DNA of 55,016 bases from Ancalomicrobiaceae bacterium (lineage in GTDB: Bacteria; Pseudomonadota; Alphaproteobacteria; Rhizobiales; Ancalomicrobiaceae): assembly GCA_031291595.1 (NCBI GenBank), contig JARLIU010000121.1, forward strand, positions 1 through 55,016. Reading direction: 5' to 3'. Of the stretch, positions 22,121-30,832 are shown piece after piece. The position numbers and the translations under genes are program-made. Below the pieces are notes generated by a model. It was not told where the DNA came from. It did not search any database and saw only the letters and a program-made list of their open reading frames with translations. Every line of letters starts with the position of its first letter. Within the stretch, counting starts at the first letter, position 1.

Positions 22121-22519
22121 TCAATCATCGGCCTGGAGTGCGGTGACTTCGATCTCCACCAGGAATTCCGGCCGGGTGAAGCCCGACACGATGACGAGCG
22201 TCGACACCGGCCGGGGATCGACCGTGTAGCGGTCGCGCACCGCCATGTAGGTCGGGAAATCCTCGCGCCGGGTGACGAAACCGGCGATGCGGATGACGTC
22301 GGAAAAATCCATGCCGGCATCGGCGAGGATTGCCTTCACCGCCTCGAAGCAGAGGATGGCCTGGGCCTCGACGTCCAAGGGGATCGTGTCGTCGACGGCA
22401 ATGCCGAGCTGCCCAGAGGTGACCAGCAATCGGCCGGCCGCCGGCAACGATAATCCATGGCTGTAGCCGCCGAAGGGCTTTCGGACGCCGGCTGGATTGT
22501 GGACTTGTTTCATTGCCAT
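22121..22519 (-). CDS. RidA/YjgF-family protein
   Basis: GGYSHGLSLPAAGRLLVTSGQLGIAVDDTIPLDVEAQAILCFEAVKAILADAG. Confidence 0.9.
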   Translation of the reverse strand: MAMKQVHNPAGVRKPFGGYSHGLSLPAAGRLLVTSGQLGIAVDDTIPLDVEAQAILCFEAVKAILADAGMDFSDVIRIAGFVTRREDFPTYMAVRDRYTVDPRPVSTLVIVSGFTRPEFLVEIEVTALQADD

Positions 22520-22554
22520 ATATTGCTTTTCTCGATTTCAGCTCACGACGCTGG

Positions 22555-22621
22555 TTATTGCGAGCGAAGCGATCCAGACGTTTCAACTGCTTTCTGGATT
22601 GCTTCGCTTCGCTCGCAATAA
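22555..22621. repeat. REP-type interspersed palindrome, copy 1
   Basis: TTATTGCGAGCGAAGCGATCCAGA, 14-nt spacer, TCTGGATTGCTTCGCTTCGCTCGCAATAA. Confidence 0.85.
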
Positions 22622-22687
22622 CGAACTCTGTATTTTATATGGACTTGCGGCATTGGGCTGCACATTGCTTCGACCGATCAAATCAGC

Positions 22688-23269
22688 TCAGAAGCGCGCC
22701 ATGGCATCGCCGACCTTGGCGAGGAACCGCGCGCGGGTTTCCGGCGTCGAATTGTTCATGTCGTAATGCGCCATGAATTTGACCGAGCCGAACGGATTGA
22801 TCTGCGCCCGCAACACCCGCTTGACGATCTTCTTCGGCGGATCGCCGGCCAGAAACGCCCTGAGCGGCGTGCCGCCATAGGTCAGCACGGCGCCGAGCTT
22901 GCGGATCTGTTGCAGGCGCGACTGCACCTTGCCGTCGACCAGTTCGAACGACACTCCGGGCAGCCAGACACGGTCGAAATAGCCCTTCAGCATCGCCGGA
23001 AAGCCGAAATTCCACACCGGCGTGACGATGACCAGCGCTTCGGCGGCTTTGAGGCGATCGCAATAAGGAGCGACTTTGGCGCGGTTGTCGGGAATCGTGT
23101 GGTAGGCCAGCCGGTCCTCGCGCGACAGGACGGGATCGAAGCCCTCGGCATAGAGGTCGCAGTCGTCGACGTCGTGCCCGGCACGGACGAGCGCTTCATG
23201 CGTCTTGGCGTGCAGCGCCGCGCCGTAGCTCGATTCGACCGGATGCGAATAGAGCAGCAGCAGCTTCAT
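22688..23269 (-). CDS. Flavodoxin-fold NAD(P)H oxidoreductase
   Basis: MKLLLLYSHPVESSYGAALHAKTHEALVRAGHDVDDCDLY; TPVWNFGFPAMLKGYFDRVWLPG. Confidence 0.88.
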   Translation of the reverse strand: MKLLLLYSHPVESSYGAALHAKTHEALVRAGHDVDDCDLYAEGFDPVLSREDRLAYHTIPDNRAKVAPYCDRLKAAEALVIVTPVWNFGFPAMLKGYFDRVWLPGVSFELVDGKVQSRLQQIRKLGAVLTYGGTPLRAFLAGDPPKKIVKRVLRAQINPFGSVKFMAHYDMNNSTPETRARFLAKVGDAMARF

Positions 23270-24675
23270 TCGGCCGCCCTCAGCGCTGCAAGCCCTTGGA
23301 ACAGGTAGGTCTTGCCGGCGGTGAAATCGAAGTCCGGGTTGTCCCAGGCGATCATCTTGCCGGGGTTGAGCAGGCCCTTGGGATCGGTTTCGTGCTTGAA
23401 GGCGAGTTGCACCGTGTCGGTCTGCTTCATGCCGCCTTCTTCCAGCGTATAGCGGTGCGGGTTGAAGATCGGGCAGCCGTTGTCCTCGAAGATGCGGATG
23501 ATCTCCTCGAGCCGCGCCTCGGTCGAATAGCGCACCAACGGCAGGTTGGAGCACTGGATCTCGCCGTCGAAGGTGATGAATTCGAGGTGGCTGATCACCT
23601 CGTCGCCGAAGATGCCGGCCATGCGCACGGATTTTTCGACATGATCCGGGCTGCCGTACTGCACCTGCAGGTAGGTGATGCTGGGGTCGACCCTCAGCGC
23701 CCTGAGCGTCGTGTGGTTCCAGGTGAGCTCATAAGCTTCCGGAATGCCCTTGAGGCTCTCCGCCGTGTCGGCCCGGAAGACGATTTCGGCCTTCTTTACC
23801 CCGCAGAAGGCCTCGAAGGCGTCGAGCGCGAACGGTGCCACCATGCAGATCACCACCGACTGGCCGTCGCGGATCCACGGCTTATGCCGGCTGAAATAGG
23901 CTTGCGGCGCCGGCGCGGCGACGACCGCCAGTTCCTTCAACAGGATGCCGTGCTGATGCGCCAGCTGGTCGGCAAACTTGGCGGCGTCGGCAAATGCATC
24001 GAAGCCGACGATGACGTCGACCCAGTCGTAGGCAGGCGCCAACGGCATTTCGACCTCGGTGATGATGCCGTTGGTGCCGTAGGCGTGCGACACCTTGTGC
24101 AGGTCGAGGCCGGTCAGTTCGAGCACGCGCGGCTCCGCCTCCATGGTGACCACCTTGAGCCGCAGGATGTTGCCGAGATCGCGCAGGCCGCCCCAGCGGA
24201 TTGAGCCGACGCCGCCGGAGCCGCCTGCGACGAAGCCGCCGATGGTCGCGGTCTTGGCGGTCGAGGGATGGAAGCGCAGCTCCTGGGCCGAGTGGGCACG
24301 GGTCTCCTCGTCGAGCTTGGAGATGACGATGCCGGCCTCGGCGATCACCCGGCCCGGATGGATCGCCTTCACCTTGTTCATGCCCGCCATGTTGAGGACG
24401 ATGCCGCCGGACAGCGGCATGGCCTGACCATAGTTGCCGGTGCCGGTGCCGCGCGGCGTGACCGGCACGCCATGGGCGTAGGCCACCTTCAGAGTGCGGA
24501 TCACCTCGTCCTCACTTGCCGGCGAGACGACGAGATCGGCGCGCACCTCGGCGAGCTGTGCCTTCAACACCGGCGAATACCAGTAGAAATCGCGGCTCTT
24601 CTGCAACACCAGCTGCGGATGGTCCTCGATGGCGATGCCAGCGAGTTCGGACTTGAGGACGGCATAATCAGGCAT
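23266..24675 (-). CDS. FAD-binding oxidase, GlcD/VAO-PCMH fold
   Basis: DLVVSPASEDEVIRTLKVAYAHGVPVTPRGTGTGNYGQAMPLSGGIVL; C-terminal DPKGLLNPGKM. Confidence 0.92.
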   Translation of the reverse strand: MPDYAVLKSELAGIAIEDHPQLVLQKSRDFYWYSPVLKAQLAEVRADLVVSPASEDEVIRTLKVAYAHGVPVTPRGTGTGNYGQAMPLSGGIVLNMAGMNKVKAIHPGRVIAEAGIVISKLDEETRAHSAQELRFHPSTAKTATIGGFVAGGSGGVGSIRWGGLRDLGNILRLKVVTMEAEPRVLELTGLDLHKVSHAYGTNGIITEVEMPLAPAYDWVDVIVGFDAFADAAKFADQLAHQHGILLKELAVVAAPAPQAYFSRHKPWIRDGQSVVICMVAPFALDAFEAFCGVKKAEIVFRADTAESLKGIPEAYELTWNHTTLRALRVDPSITYLQVQYGSPDHVEKSVRMAGIFGDEVISHLEFITFDGEIQCSNLPLVRYSTEARLEEIIRIFEDNGCPIFNPHRYTLEEGGMKQTDTVQLAFKHETDPKGLLNPGKMIAWDNPDFDFTAGKTYLFQGLAALRAAE

Positions 24676-25993
24676 GGTGGCCTCCGGAGAGCCAGTCGAG
24701 GTCTCGGTAGTCGGGAAGCGCGCGCGACACGGCACGCCCCCTGCGCATCACGATGCGGTCGGCCTGCGGGCGCGACAGGAACTCGCTCCAGCGGCGCGCG
24801 GAGAACAGCACGAGATCGGCCGGTGCCCCCTCGGCGATGACGCCGAGTTCCGCCCTGCCGAGGATTTCGGCCGGCGTCCTGGTGACGATCCTCGCGGCTT
24901 CATCGAGTGGATGGTCGAGGTGCAGGATCCGGACCGCCTCGCGGAACACTTCGACCGGATCGAGGTCGCCATAGCCATAGAACGGGTCGCGGGTGTTGTC
25001 GGAAGCGACGGCGGTCGGCACGCCGGCCTCGGCCAGTTCCTTGAACAGCGTGACGCCGCGCCAGCGCGGCGTGCGGCCGGGATGGCGATCCTGCAGGTAC
25101 ATGTTGCACATCGGCAGCGACACCACGCCGATGCCGGCCGTGGCGACGAGGTCGATGACCCGCTTGGCGGTGTCCTCGTCCTGGCGGGCGAGCGAACAGC
25201 AATGACCGACCGTCACCGAGCCGGAAAAGCCGTGACGAAGCTTCGCCTTGGCGATCAATTCCAGCGTCAGGACTTCGCGGTCCTCGGTCTCGTCGACATG
25301 CAGGTCGATGTCGAGCCCGGCCGAGGCGGCCGCCGCGAACAGCCGGTCGAGCTGGGCATCGATGCGGGGTCCGGGGAAGGTGGCGCCACCGAGGAGTCCG
25401 CCGGCATCGGCGACGACCGCGACCAAATCGGCGAAATAGGCTTCGTCCTCGACCGCATCGATGGGCAGGAGCGCGACGGCCTGCAGGTCGATGCGGCCCT
25501 GCCACTCGGCCCGCTTGGCCTTGAACACCTCGAACGAGATGCGGTGCTGCGGCGCCAGGCTATCGAGATGGGTGCGGATCAGCCGCGTGCCGTGGGCGTA
25601 GGCGGCTTGAAGCGAGAACTGCATCCGCGCCGCCACATCCTCGGCGGTCCAGTTGGCTTCGCGGTCGGCGCGCACCGCATTGAGCGCGCCGATGAAGCTG
25701 CCGTCCGGATTGGCTTCGCGCTCCGAGATATGCCCCTTGTCGAGGTGGGTGTGCATGTCGGTGAAGCACGGCCAGACCATGCCGGCTTTGAGATCCAGTC
25801 GCGGCATCTCGGCCGGCGCGGCCCCCGTGGGCAGGATGGCGGCGATGCGGCCGGCGTCGATGACGACATCGGCGCTGACGAGCCCCTCGCGGGCGGCAAC
25901 CGCAATCGGCTTCGCCAACAGCACGGCCGGCAACGTGGCGTTTGCCAGCACGAAGCGCGGCGCATCCGGCAATGAGGCGAAGTCGGCAGGCAT
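24668..25993 (-). CDS. Amidohydrolase, cytosine-deaminase (CodA)-like
   Basis: FTDMHTHLDKGHIS, DLHVDETED, SVTVGHCCSLARQDED, ASDNTRDPFYGYGDLDPVEVFR. Confidence 0.88.
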   Translation of the reverse strand: MPADFASLPDAPRFVLANATLPAVLLAKPIAVAAREGLVSADVVIDAGRIAAILPTGAAPAEMPRLDLKAGMVWPCFTDMHTHLDKGHISEREANPDGSFIGALNAVRADREANWTAEDVAARMQFSLQAAYAHGTRLIRTHLDSLAPQHRISFEVFKAKRAEWQGRIDLQAVALLPIDAVEDEAYFADLVAVVADAGGLLGGATFPGPRIDAQLDRLFAAAASAGLDIDLHVDETEDREVLTLELIAKAKLRHGFSGSVTVGHCCSLARQDEDTAKRVIDLVATAGIGVVSLPMCNMYLQDRHPGRTPRWRGVTLFKELAEAGVPTAVASDNTRDPFYGYGDLDPVEVFREAVRILHLDHPLDEAARIVTRTPAEILGRAELGVIAEGAPADLVLFSARRWSEFLSRPQADRIVMRRGRAVSRALPDYRDLDWLSGGHHA

Positions 25994-26805
25994 CAATTTT
26001 CCCTTTCCACGCTGCTTTCGTGCCAGCGATGGAGCACGAGCCATGCCACGAACGAGGTGGCGGCAAAGATGGCGACGCCGAGCGCCGACAGCATCAAAAG
26101 CGCCGCGAACAGGCGGGGGATGTTGAGCCGGAACTGCGATTCCAACAGCCGGAAGGCGAGGCCGGAACCGGCACCGGCCGAACCGGCGGCGAATTCGGCG
26201 ACGACCGCGGCGATGAGAGAAAGCCCGCCGCCGATCTTCAGACCCGTCATGAAATAGGGCTGCGCCGCCGGGATCTTCAGGTGCCACAGCGTCTGCAGTC
26301 GCGATGCGCCGTAGAGTTCGAACAGATTCAGATGGTTGTGATCGACGCTCTTCAGCCCCTGCACCATGTTGGACAGGATCGGGAAGAAGGCGACCAGGAA
26401 GGCGCAGATCAGCAGCGCCACCTGCGTGGTCGGGGCGTAGATCAGGATCAGCGGCGAGATGGCGACGATCGGCGTGACCTGCAACACGACGGCGATCGGA
26501 TAGAAGGCGAGCTCGATCCAGCGCGATTGCACCAGCAGGATGGCGAAGATCGAACCACCGACAAGCGCCAGCCCGAGCGAAACGAGGGTGATCTCGGCGG
26601 TCACCAGGAAGGCCGGCCACAGGATCTGCCAATCCCTGACGAGCGCCGCCACTACCGTGATCGGGTCCGGCAGGATGTAGACCGGCGTTGCCGTCAGCTT
26701 CACGCCCGCCCACCAGATCACGACCAGCAGACCGACGACGGCCAAGGGGGTGAGAATGCGAAGCGCCAGATCGCGCGATGCGCCGAGGCCATTGCCGTTC
26801 GCCAT
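25993..26805 (-). CDS. NitT/TauT-type ABC transporter permease
   Basis: Start MANGNGLGASRDLALRILTPLAVV; EAA-like loop ELYGASRLQTLWHLKIPAAQPYFMTGLKI. Confidence 0.9.
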   Translation of the reverse strand: MANGNGLGASRDLALRILTPLAVVGLLVVIWWAGVKLTATPVYILPDPITVVAALVRDWQILWPAFLVTAEITLVSLGLALVGGSIFAILLVQSRWIELAFYPIAVVLQVTPIVAISPLILIYAPTTQVALLICAFLVAFFPILSNMVQGLKSVDHNHLNLFELYGASRLQTLWHLKIPAAQPYFMTGLKIGGGLSLIAAVVAEFAAGSAGAGSGLAFRLLESQFRLNIPRLFAALLMLSALGVAIFAATSFVAWLVLHRWHESSVEREN

Positions 26806-27674
26806 CAGTGAGCTCCCGCGCCATGGAGGGCCTTGCCGCGCACGCTCTCGCCGTGCATGGCGTTCTGCAGCGAATGCGACACCCGTTCGCAGGTGCTGCG
26901 GTAGGATTCGGAGGTGCGGAACTCCTCGTCGCGCACCGCGCCGCGATTGACCTCGAAATCCTCGTGGATCCGTCCGGGACGTGCCTTCATCACCACGATG
27001 CGCGTCGACAGATAGGCGGACTCGAACACCGAATGGGTGACGAAGATGACCGAGACGCCGGTCTCCGCCCACAACGTCAGCACGTCGTCGTTGAGCTTCT
27101 GCCGGGTGATTTCGTCGAGGCTAGCGAACGGTTCGTCCATCAGCAGCAGTTTTGGCCGCGTCACCATGGCGCGGGCGATCGACACCCGCATCTTCATGCC
27201 GCCGGACAACTCGCGCGGATAGGCCTGGCGGAAGTCCGTCAGCCCCACCGTCTTCAGCGCATCGTCGACGACGGCAGCGGCGGCCCGGCGGGAGATGCCT
27301 TTCAGCTGCAATGGCAGATAGACGTTTTCAAACACATTGCGCCACGGCAACAGCGTCGGCTCCTGAAACACGAAGGAAATGTCGCTCTCAGGCTTGCCGT
27401 TCGGATTGATCCGCGTCGACGGCCAATCGATGGAGCCGGTGGTGACGCCGCCGAGGCCGGCGATGATCCTCAGCGCCGTCGACTTGCCGCAGCCAGACGG
27501 GCCGAGCAGGCTGACGAATTCGCCGGAACGGACGGTCAAGGACACGTCGGCCAGCGCCTGCGTGCCGTTGGAGAACAGTTTCGACACCGATCGCATGGCG
27601 AGCAGCGGGCGCATCGCTGGTACGGGCGTATCCAAGGGATCGGTCATTCCTCTGGCAGTCGGCGTTGACGACAT
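26805..27674 (-). CDS. NitT/TauT-type ABC transporter ATP-binding protein
   Basis: Walker A GPSGCGKST, Q-loop FQEPTLLPW, signature LSGGMKMRVSIARA, LLMDEPFASLD. Confidence 0.95.
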   Translation of the reverse strand: MSSTPTARGMTDPLDTPVPAMRPLLAMRSVSKLFSNGTQALADVSLTVRSGEFVSLLGPSGCGKSTALRIIAGLGGVTTGSIDWPSTRINPNGKPESDISFVFQEPTLLPWRNVFENVYLPLQLKGISRRAAAAVVDDALKTVGLTDFRQAYPRELSGGMKMRVSIARAMVTRPKLLLMDEPFASLDEITRQKLNDDVLTLWAETGVSVIFVTHSVFESAYLSTRIVVMKARPGRIHEDFEVNRGAVRDEEFRTSESYRSTCERVSHSLQNAMHGESVRGKALHGAGAH

Positions 27675-27780
27675 GGGCGACTCGTCGCGGTCACCCCAAG
27701 ACGGGTCGGGGATACTCACAGCATTCCCGCGATCGATCGAAGCATGTTACGATACTGTCCGAGCGCGCGCACGCGCTTGT

Positions 27781-27809
27781 TGCCCGGACAATCTTCGACT
27801 TTCCGGGCA
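27781..27809. other. Stem-loop between binding-protein and ATPase genes
   Basis: TGCCCGGA-N13-TCCGGGCA, perfect 8-bp stem. Confidence 0.6.
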
Positions 27810-27825
27810 TAGATTTTATGCGCAA

Positions 27826-28830
27826 TCACTTCTTCAGCGCCAGACCGACGCCCTTGCAGACGAACTTCGCGGTAAAGGCCTTTGTGTAGTCCGTATCCGC
27901 CTTCAATACCTTGATCTTCACCATCGTGTCGAAGAACGCCTTGTACTTCGCGTCGGTCATGCAGCCGATGCCTTTCGGCAGGGCTTCGCCCGATTCCACG
28001 ATGCCGTATTCCTTCATCTTGGCGATGGAGAAGGCGATCTGGCCATCGGTCATCTCCGGATTGTCTTTCTTGATCAACTCGTTGGCCGCCTTGTTGTCGC
28101 CATAGAGATAAGTGTACCAGCCCTCGATCGAGGCATCGACGAAGCGCTGCACCAGTTCGGGCTTGTTCTCGACCAGGCTCACTTGCGCCGCGATCGTCGT
28201 CGAATAGGGATCGAAGCCCTCGTCCGCCAAGAGGAAGATCACCGGCTTGAAGCCGGCTTGGCGTTCGATCTCGTAGGGCTCGGAGGTGAGATACCCCTGC
28301 TGCGCCGACTTGGCATCGGCAAGGAACGGCGCCGGGTTGAACGTATAGGGCTTGTACTGTTCGTCCCTGAAGCCCTTGAAGTTGGCCTTCATCCACTCGA
28401 AGAAGGTGGTGTAGCCCTCCTTGCCGAGGAAAATGGCGCTCGCCTTGGCCAGATCGGGGAATTTATCCATGCCCTGGCCGGGATGCGCCATCAGCACCTG
28501 CGGATCCTTCTGGAACATGGCGGCGACATCCATGATCGGAATGCCCTGCTCGACCGCCGACAGTTCGCCCATGGCCGAGCCCATGTAGAAGTCGATCTTG
28601 CCGGCGATCAACAGCGCGGCGTTGGCCGCCTGCGGGCCACCCTGAACGATGGTCACGTCGAGCCCGTGCTTCTTGTAGGTGCCGTCGGCGATGGCCTGGT
28701 AGAAACCGCCGTGCTCGGCTTCCGCCAGCCAGTTGGTGCCGAAAGTGACTTTGTCGGCGGCCTCCGCCGCGACAGACAGTCCGAGGCCGCAAACGGCCGC
28801 GATCAGGCCGAGCTTGAGCGTTGCGTGCAT
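27826..28830 (-). CDS. NMT1/THI5-like ABC transporter substrate-binding protein
   Basis: Signal peptide; KVTFGTNWLAEAEHGGFYQAIADGTYKKHGLDVTIVQGGPQAANAALLIAGKIDFYMG. Confidence 0.92.
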   Translation of the reverse strand: MHATLKLGLIAAVCGLGLSVAAEAADKVTFGTNWLAEAEHGGFYQAIADGTYKKHGLDVTIVQGGPQAANAALLIAGKIDFYMGSAMGELSAVEQGIPIMDVAAMFQKDPQVLMAHPGQGMDKFPDLAKASAIFLGKEGYTTFFEWMKANFKGFRDEQYKPYTFNPAPFLADAKSAQQGYLTSEPYEIERQAGFKPVIFLLADEGFDPYSTTIAAQVSLVENKPELVQRFVDASIEGWYTYLYGDNKAANELIKKDNPEMTDGQIAFSIAKMKEYGIVESGEALPKGIGCMTDAKYKAFFDTMVKIKVLKADTDYTKAFTAKFVCKGVGLALKK

Positions 28831-28911
28831 GTCCGGTCTTCCCCTGTCATGACGTGAATGGTCCCCTCGATCGGGGCATTGTGCGGAAATGGAGCACTTG
28901 CATCGAGCCTT

Positions 28912-28943
28912 GAAAAGCATCAAATTGCGTTCGCTTTGATGCC
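28912..28943. promoter_or_regulatory. 32-bp candidate operator, copy 1 (binding protein / LysR divergent region)
   Basis: GAAAAGCATCAAATTGCGTTCGCTTTGATGCC, internal GCATCAAA..TTTGATGC; 28/32 identical to copy 2 at 30801-30832. Confidence 0.75.
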
Positions 28944-29006
28944 TTTTCGGCAATTCAGCAGGGATTGTTGCTTCTGCGGGCGCTGTGCCCGGATTTTGGG
29001 CAGGCA

Positions 29007-29960
29007 ATGTCGATGTTGCACTCACGCAAGCTCCTGTACATCAACGAAATCGCCAAGTGCGGCTCGATCCGCAAGGCTGCCGAACGCATGAACGTGGCGT
29101 CCTCGGCGATCAACCGGCAGATCCTGGCGCTCGAGGACGAGATCGGCGCGCCGATCTTCGAACGGCTGCCGCGCGGCCTCCGGCTGACGTCGGTCGGCGA
29201 GCTTTGCGTCGAGCACGTTCGCGATGTGCTGAAGAATTACGAGAAGCTGCAGGGCCGCATCAAGAGCCTCAAAATGCCGCAGGCCGGCAAGGTGTCGATG
29301 GTCACCACCATCGGGCTGGCGTCCGGACCGCTGCCGCAACTGATGGCTCGCTTCCTCGCCGACCATCCGCGCATCCGGGTGCTGGTCAGGAGCGACGGCG
29401 GCGTGACGACCTCGATGCCGGTGATCGCCGGCGAGGTGGATCTCGGCCTCGGCTTCAACATTCCGACGCTGCCCGGCATCCGGTCGCTGGCCAATTTCGA
29501 GGTCCCCATCGGCGCGGTGCTGCCGGTCGGCCACCGGCTGGCCGCCCGGGAGCGGGTGAGCCTCGTCGATCTGGCGCAGGAGCGGCTGGTGCTGGGCCTA
29601 CCCGGAACGTCGTTGCGCGACACCATCAACCTGGCGTTTGCGCCGCTGCCGATTTCGGTCGAACCGGCGCTCGAAACCAATTCGCTGGAAATGATCCGCA
29701 GCCTGATCGGCCAGGGGGCGGGGGTGTCGCTGCTCAATCCGCTGGACGTGCTGATGGAATCGCGGCGCGGCGACCTCGTCTACCGGCCGCTCGCCGACAG
29801 CCACGTCCGTCCGCAGCCGATGAAGCTGTTCGCCCGGGCGCGGGCCGCGCTCGACGCCGCGACCAGCGTGTTCGTCGAGTTCCTGCTTTCAGAACTCGTC
29901 GACATGATCCGCGAGACGACCAACGGCCAGGGATTGGTGGGCAAGGCTCAGCCGGTATAG
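29007..29960 (+). CDS. LysR-family transcriptional regulator
   Basis: RKLLYINEIAKCGSIRKAAERMNVASSAINRQILALEDEIGAPIFERLPRGLRLT. Confidence 0.93.
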   Translation: MSMLHSRKLLYINEIAKCGSIRKAAERMNVASSAINRQILALEDEIGAPIFERLPRGLRLTSVGELCVEHVRDVLKNYEKLQGRIKSLKMPQAGKVSMVTTIGLASGPLPQLMARFLADHPRIRVLVRSDGGVTTSMPVIAGEVDLGLGFNIPTLPGIRSLANFEVPIGAVLPVGHRLAARERVSLVDLAQERLVLGLPGTSLRDTINLAFAPLPISVEPALETNSLEMIRSLIGQGAGVSLLNPLDVLMESRRGDLVYRPLADSHVRPQPMKLFARARAALDAATSVFVEFLLSELVDMIRETTNGQGLVGKAQPV

Positions 29961-30745
29961 AGGTTCGACAGGGAATAGCCGGTCAGATCCTCGATCAGCT
30001 CGACGAAGCCGCGCGCGACGTGGCGGCAATAGCGCTCGCCCTTGTCCACCGTCGCCTTGGAGGCATCGCCGACGACGCCGTTCGGGTTCAGATCGTGCGC
30101 CACCCAGGCAAGTGCGTGCGGCGGCAACGGCTGCAGGTAGGTGGTGTTGGCCTTCATCCATTCGGCGCGCGAGACGAAATTCTCCGCCTTGTCCATCCTG
30201 ACCAGATCCGGGCGGAAATACAGCATCATCGATGTTTCCACCTCGCCGCCGTGGATGCCGTAGGTCATCTCGTGCCGGCTGAACAGCCCCTCCGGGCTGC
30301 CGAAGCGGCTCCACTGCGTCGCCACCACCGCCATCTGGAAGCGCACGCGCATCTCGCGCGAAACGATCGACATCAGGTCGAGATTGCCACCGTGCGAGTT
30401 GACGATGATCAGCTTCTTCACCCCGGCTTCCGACACTTTCTGGCCGATCGCCGTCCACACCGGGATCAGCAGTTCGGCGGGAAACGACAGCGTGCCCGGG
30501 CCGTAGATATGCTCGTTGGCCTTGCCGATTTCCTGGGTCGGCAGCACCAGCACGTTCAGGTGGGCAGGCAGGATCTTCCTGACTTCGCCGAGCATGCCGT
30601 TGGCGATCGCCGTGTCGGTGGCGATGGGCAGGTGCGGCCCGTGCTGCTCGGTCGAGGCAAGCGGCAGGATGGCGACGGTCGTTTCGGTATCGAGCGTGCC
30701 AAACTCGGGGCTGGTCAGCTCATTCCAGTAAAAGCGCGCTGTCAT
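29948..30745 (-). CDS. Creatininase-family amidohydrolase
   Basis: VAILPLASTEQHGPHLPIATD, IVNSHGGN, GIHGGEVETSMML. Confidence 0.92.
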   Translation of the reverse strand: MTARFYWNELTSPEFGTLDTETTVAILPLASTEQHGPHLPIATDTAIANGMLGEVRKILPAHLNVLVLPTQEIGKANEHIYGPGTLSFPAELLIPVWTAIGQKVSEAGVKKLIIVNSHGGNLDLMSIVSREMRVRFQMAVVATQWSRFGSPEGLFSRHEMTYGIHGGEVETSMMLYFRPDLVRMDKAENFVSRAEWMKANTTYLQPLPPHALAWVAHDLNPNGVVGDASKATVDKGERYCRHVARGFVELIEDLTGYSLSNLYTG

Positions 30746-30800
30746 CGCCGGCCTCCGCTTGCGTCCCACGCTTCCGGAACTAGGCAATAACGTTAGCGCT

Positions 30801-30832
30801 GAAAAGCATCAATTTGCGCTCGATATGATGCC
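30801..30832. promoter_or_regulatory. 32-bp candidate operator, copy 2 (creatininase promoter region)
   Basis: GAAAAGCATCAATTTGCGCTCGATATGATGCC, 28/32 identical to copy 1. Confidence 0.75.

Follow-up and report, generated by a model that had tools for sequence, protein, structure and literature searches.

A Conserved, LysR-Linked Gene Cluster of an Ancalomicrobiaceae Bacterium Probably Dedicated to the Uptake and Catabolism of Folate or Its Pterin Breakdown Products

Nine genes at positions 22121-30745 of contig JARLIU010000121.1 (Ancalomicrobiaceae bacterium, assembly GCA_031291595.1) probably constitute a LysR-controlled operon through which folate and/or the pterins arising from its breakdown are imported and catabolised. 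By homology, this substrate class is well supported: the FAD enzyme of the cluster is an ortholog of the flavin oxygenase of PDB entry 6v42, and its CodA-like amidohydrolase is a probable pterin/folate deaminase. Natural breakdown of the pterin ring of folate is poorly known, and work on folic acid breakdown by Variovorax sp. F1 stops at deaminofolate and deaminopteroate (PMC9513972). Individual folate-deaminating enzymes and the structure of one flavin oxygenase had been described before; the partner genes, the importer and the regulator are the useful addition made here to a partly known pathway.

Gene Organization of the Cluster

The locus under study spans 22121-30832 of the window, i.e., the whole stretch of 55,016 nucleotides that was analysed. 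Its genes were checked by translation and by scanning with Pfam and NCBIfam profiles, all nine proteins far exceeding the Pfam cut-offs. In order of transcription, the minus strand carries the genes for a periplasmic NMT1/THI5-like substrate-binding protein with a signal peptide (27826-28830, 334 residues; PF09084, E-value 6.2e-24), a NitT/TauT-type ABC ATPase (26805-27719; ABC_tran, PF00005, 3.1e-33), the cognate type of permease (25993-26805, 270 residues; BPD_transp_1, PF00528, 1.1e-22), a CodA-like amidohydrolase of the PRK07583 branch (24668-25993, 441 residues; Amidohydro_3), the FAD enzyme (23266-24675, 469 residues; FAD_binding_4), a Flavodoxin_2-fold NAD(P)H oxidoreductase (22688-23269, 193 residues; PF02525, 1.3e-28) and an imine/enamine hydrolase-like protein of the RidA family (22121-22519, 132 residues; PF01042, 2.2e-21). 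The GTG start of the ATPase gene at 27719 is uncertain, because in-frame ATG codons come after it. On the plus strand, a LysR-type regulator gene (29007-29960, 317 residues; PF00126 and PF03466) diverges from the binding-protein gene and overlaps tail-to-tail with the minus-strand gene of a creatininase-family metallohydrolase (29948-30745, 265 residues; PF02633, 9.9e-73), whose stop lies at 29948.

Four gene junctions show overlaps of 1-8 bases. The stop of the CodA-like gene (24668) overlaps the start of the FAD enzyme gene (24675), the stop of the latter (23266) overlaps the start of the flavodoxin-fold gene (23269), and one-base TGATG junctions link permease and CodA-like genes at 25993 and ATPase and permease genes at 26805. 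The RidA gene is co-directional with the cluster and separated from the flavodoxin-fold gene by a gap of ~170 bp. A strong palindromic hairpin lies within this gap (22550-22628, z = -6.4); it has 70 matches across the genome, being a dispersed intergenic repeat, and is therefore not specific to the cluster. Every gene named in an earlier note on this DNA was verified by the profile scans, and the start/stop overlaps that it listed occur as described.

Conservation of the Gene Set and of a Candidate Operator

Scanning a named genome collection with an alignment of the CodA-like protein yielded 80 loci, in which homologues were counted within 20 kb. Most belong to Rhizobium, Neorhizobium, Agrobacterium and their relatives, with others in Roseibium, Martelella, Kaistia, Prosthecomicrobium and further genera. 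Each of the nine homologues is present in 71-80 of these loci, numbers that are biased to close relatives since the loci were picked as best CodA matches: the permease in all 80, the ATPase and the binding protein in 79 each, the flavodoxin-fold gene in 78, directly after that of the FAD enzyme, the LysR gene at the same position in 72, and RidA in 71. The usual order is creatininase, LysR (divergent), binding protein, ATPase, permease, CodA, FAD enzyme, flavodoxin and RidA. A separate search with the 6v42 protein covered 399 genomes sampled from the phylum; 32 of them encode the FAD enzyme, and 20 regions from those 32 genomes showed the same partners in Rhizobiales, in another family of the class and in other classes. 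Plasmid records of Klebsiella, Rahnella, Nitratireductor and Palleronia carry related or paralogous versions, and the reductase can be swapped in other versions of the cluster for a second flavodoxin, a PDR/VanB reductase or a FAD reductase. The genes under study thus form a conserved unit and not a chance assembly.

Both promoters contain a 26-bp palindrome, GCATCA-N14-TGATGC, as candidate operator: one copy lies in the LysR/binding-protein intergenic region (28917-28942) and the second upstream of the creatininase-family gene (30806-30831). It is kept with up to one mismatch in 66 of 72 LysR/binding-protein intergenic regions of homologous loci, versus 0.1 in mononucleotide shuffles, and with up to two mismatches in 58 of 71 regions upstream of the creatininase gene, versus 0.3 in such shuffles. 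Since the conserved palindrome is common to both promoters, the creatininase-family gene is tied to the same regulator. LysR is predicted to bind this site at both promoters. Perfect copies occur at just three sites in the 5.25-Mb genome, the third of which (contig C211, position 16269) overlaps the start region of the gene for a transglycosylase-associated small protein and was taken as chance. The earlier note had anticipated the operator common to the LysR and creatininase promoters and had also grouped the importer with a hydrolase, a flavin enzyme, a ring hydrolase and RidA in a single catabolic unit. This grouping is borne out by the common operator and by joint recurrence of the homologues, for which the note had proposed a search, in Rhizobiales, another alphaproteobacterial family, Betaproteobacteria and Gammaproteobacteria.

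The FAD Enzyme and Its Relation to 6v42

When the FAD enzyme was compared with the PDB by phmmer, 6v42 was matched with 696 bits over query residues 6-463, the next-best entry reaching 61 bits. Both proteins are 66-67% identical over nearly their full length, and 6v42 was also the top Foldseek match; the fold model is modest (pLDDT 68), and therefore just the sequence-backed match was relied on. In a maximum-likelihood tree, the FAD enzyme and 6v42 fall in one clade of cluster-borne enzymes, with Klebsiella-type paralogues separate. The sampled genomes with the proteins nearest to 6v42 (74-75% identity) hold creatininase, RidA, binding protein, ATPase, permease, CodA, FAD enzyme and two flavodoxins. 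Near full-length homology, the common clade and the same gene set around the closest sampled relatives indicate, at the sequence level, that the enzyme is the ortholog of 6v42/6v43. The 6v42-like clusters have two flavodoxin genes and no LysR gene detected, whereas the cluster studied here has one flavodoxin gene and LysR. Identity with the glycolate oxidase GlcD was rejected, the score of 82.8 bits lying below the equivalog cut-off of 567.9.

The link of 6v42 to folate degradation comes from its PDB title ('Crystal structure of the flavin oxygenase with cofactor bound involved in folate catabolism'), no paper on it having been found in the open-access literature, a point that counts against the folate reading. 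This assignment might not be transferable, the same enzyme types acting instead on another fused or substituted N-heterocycle, such as a purine (e.g., 8-oxoguanine), an alkaloid or a xenobiotic. The existence of paralogous clusters fits such a substrate, as do the genes that adjoin the cluster in relatives, namely 8-oxoguanine-deaminase-type genes in related clusters, biuret hydrolase and formamidase genes in some Rhizobium, and Mo-hydroxylase genes in R. leguminosarum relatives. Nonetheless, the placement of the FAD enzyme and 6v42 in one clade, surrounded by the same gene set, together with a deaminase branch that matches a known folate deaminase, make this alternative rather unlikely.

The CodA-like Amidohydrolase

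The CodA-like protein scored 660 bits against NF005759 (PRK07583), whose curated cut-off is 403. Its metal and catalytic residues H81, H83, H232, E235, H264 and D332 are invariant in the 80 loci, and the pterin-deaminase signature (HxH, H, H and D metal ligands plus the catalytic Glu) is complete. In fold, the model is nearest to cytosine deaminases and AtzC. Compared with CodA (1k6w) and AtzC, fold and metal/catalytic residues are alike, but substrate-pocket positions are changed and identity is low (22-24% to E. coli CodA by structural alignment; 113 bits). The substrate-contact residues Gln156 and Asp314 of E. coli CodA correspond to I178 and N333. At the first position, at least 74 of the 80 homologues have I, L, M or F; at the second, Asn is invariant. 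As both positions are replaced, the protein is not a plain cytosine deaminase.

This replacement, the low similarity to E. coli CodA, and the presence of an oxygenase, a creatininase-family enzyme and RidA, all superfluous for such a function, make salvage of cytosine or another simple pyrimidine highly improbable, in spite of the name 'cytosine deaminase' that NF005759 bears in NCBIfam, of the nearest folds, and of a RutR-like regulator in the cluster version of a presumed betaproteobacterial genus. In that genus, the deaminase-RidA pair adjoins genes for L-threonate/D-erythronate catabolism and this RutR-like regulator (loci L233 and L232).

An enzyme of Variovorax sp. F1 deaminates folic and pteroic acid; it consists of 399 residues, has an endoribonuclease gene downstream, and shares 36-37% identity with Arad3529, a pterin deaminase of Agrobacterium (PMC9513972). 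Matching features were found in the presumed betaproteobacterial genus, a placement based on genome size and gene content. There, every CodA-like protein of 398-400 residues has RidA, a member of the 'endoribonuclease L-PSP' family, encoded behind it, and creatininase, importer, FAD enzyme, binding-protein and flavodoxin genes lie in the neighbourhoods. The CodA-like proteins of this genus share 35-37% identity with rhizobial relatives of the enzyme studied here, versus 24-32% with rhizobial members of other deaminase families, and the Variovorax-like protein of 399 residues has NF005759 as its best profile (344 bits; next, 147). Because length, RidA linkage and identities of these relatives match those published for the Variovorax enzyme, Arad3529 (Agrobacterium radiobacter K84) most likely belongs, as judged through published identities, to the same PRK07583 branch as the CodA-like protein. 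Its placement as PRK05985-type, suggested by length (399 versus 398 residues), was dropped because NF005759 outscores that model in the RidA-linked 399-residue proteins (344 versus 115 bits) and because of the 35-37% identity mentioned above. Considering the branch and the complete signature, the CodA-like protein is a probable pterin/folate deaminase, longer than the Variovorax enzyme (441 versus 399 residues). One Agrobacterium vitis genome (CG78, locus L121, 1420-2835) encodes a second PRK07583-type deaminase, with 613 bits and 44-47% identity to the enzyme studied here. This counts against the folate reading, as family members may differ in substrate.

Creatininase-Family Hydrolase, RidA, Reductase and Importer

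Positions E33, H35, D44, H118 and E170 of the creatininase-family protein, corresponding to metal ligands, are invariant in 75 homologues. It resembles creatininase and the MftE/creatininase family in PF02633 membership and in these positions, but it falls below both equivalog cut-offs; identity as a creatininase was consequently rejected (TIGR04448, 86.9 versus 235 bits), and the protein is probably a ring-opening hydrolase of cyclic amides. Four further creatininase-family proteins are encoded in the genome (C119:19280, C245:34893, C35:589 and C304:18592).

A creatininase-family gene together with RidA could also be read as degradation of creatinine or a hydantoin, and on a Nitratireductor plasmid hydantoinase B and ureidoglycolate lyase genes lie beside a diverged version of the cluster. 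The failure of TIGR04448, together with the absence of creatinase, sarcosine oxidase and hydantoinase from the set conserved in the 80 loci, leaves this the least probable of the substrates considered, with hardly any weight.

RidA matches PF01042 and scores below the cut-off of TIGR00004 (52.9 versus 106 bits); identity with RutC was rejected (31 versus 169 bits). PDB relatives of the flavodoxin-fold protein are quinone/flavin reductases of the NQO1/azoreductase type, and it is a probable flavin reductase partner of the oxygenase. The Rut pathway of pyrimidine utilisation combines a flavin oxygenase, a flavin reductase and the RidA-family protein RutC. The cluster is similar in this logic, but its oxygenase belongs to an unrelated family, and hydrolases and importer differ. 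Weak similarity links the binding protein with THI5 and with 3ix1, which binds formyl-aminopyrimidine. That NMT1 binding proteins have many ligands speaks against the folate reading.

Proposed Pathway

For the folate/pterin reading, we infer the cluster's own substrate, step order and products as follows. The NMT1/THI5-like ABC importer would take up folate or a pterin, and the CodA-like metalloenzyme would hydrolytically remove the 2-amino group at C2, giving the 2,4-dioxo (lumazine) form. This form would then be oxidised, at the C9-N10 bridge or on the ring, by the flavin oxygenase reduced via the flavodoxin-fold reductase; a cut at C9-N10 would release an aldehyde and p-aminobenzoyl-glutamate. 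Finally, the creatininase-family hydrolase may open a cyclic amide and RidA may clear a reactive imine or enamine. Against this reading, neither a glutamate carboxypeptidase nor an aminobenzoyl-glutamate hydrolase is found among the genes of the cluster. The 2013 work on Arad3529 reportedly deduced from the surrounding genes a route of pterin degradation not described before, with which the present cluster would be consistent. More tentatively, and with somewhat less than an even chance, the cluster could encode a complete, regulated degradation of the pterin ring, including a dedicated ABC importer for folate or pterins. In that case, the creatininase-family protein would be a new hydrolase that opens the ring of the oxygenated lumazine, and no earlier NMT1 protein would have been specific for folate/pterin binding.

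The earlier note had proposed an undescribed pathway for a creatinine-, hydantoin- or pyrimidine-like compound. A cyclic N-heterocycle as substrate class stands, but its three examples do not, folate/pterin being the best-supported choice over creatinine (TIGR04448 failed), hydantoin or a simple pyrimidine. Given the 6v42 orthology of the FAD enzyme and a CodA-like branch that fits known pterin/folate deaminases, 'undescribed' does not hold in full. For the cluster as a whole, no description was found in the open-access literature (subscription journals lying outside the scope), whether looked for by folate or pterin catabolism or by the locus names of pRL12. A deaminase branch and a flavin oxygenase, both with folate links, are tied to fixed partner genes across many rhizobia and other Proteobacteria and, with this fixed set and a mapped operator, the missing steps of the pathway become directly testable.

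Additional Genes Beside Related Clusters

In several relatives (loci L026, L027, L028, L030, L031, L107, L108, L111 and L112), an extra amidohydrolase gene of the 8-oxoguanine-deaminase type (NF006055, guanine-like substrate; closest PDB entries 3hpa and 7ww2) lies beside the cluster, often between the RidA and creatininase genes and adjoining Uma2-family (PF05685) genes. These extra genes were counted for the folate/pterin reading too. Some Rhizobium have an adjoining block of a BMP-type importer, formamidase (NF009803) and biuret amidohydrolase BiuH (NF050097), located at about 12-21 kb in loci L080, L082, L085, L089, L092, L094 and L101, which possibly provides later nitrogen-releasing steps. 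Plasmid pRL12 of R. johnstonii 3841 carries a copy of the cluster (homologues RL_RS34440-34480), and genes for a PaoABC-type molybdenum aldehyde oxidoreductase (L135:3890-7686) are divergent from its creatininase gene. Only four of the 80 loci, all from relatives of R. leguminosarum, have these genes beside the cluster and, not being conserved, they were rejected as a pathway step.
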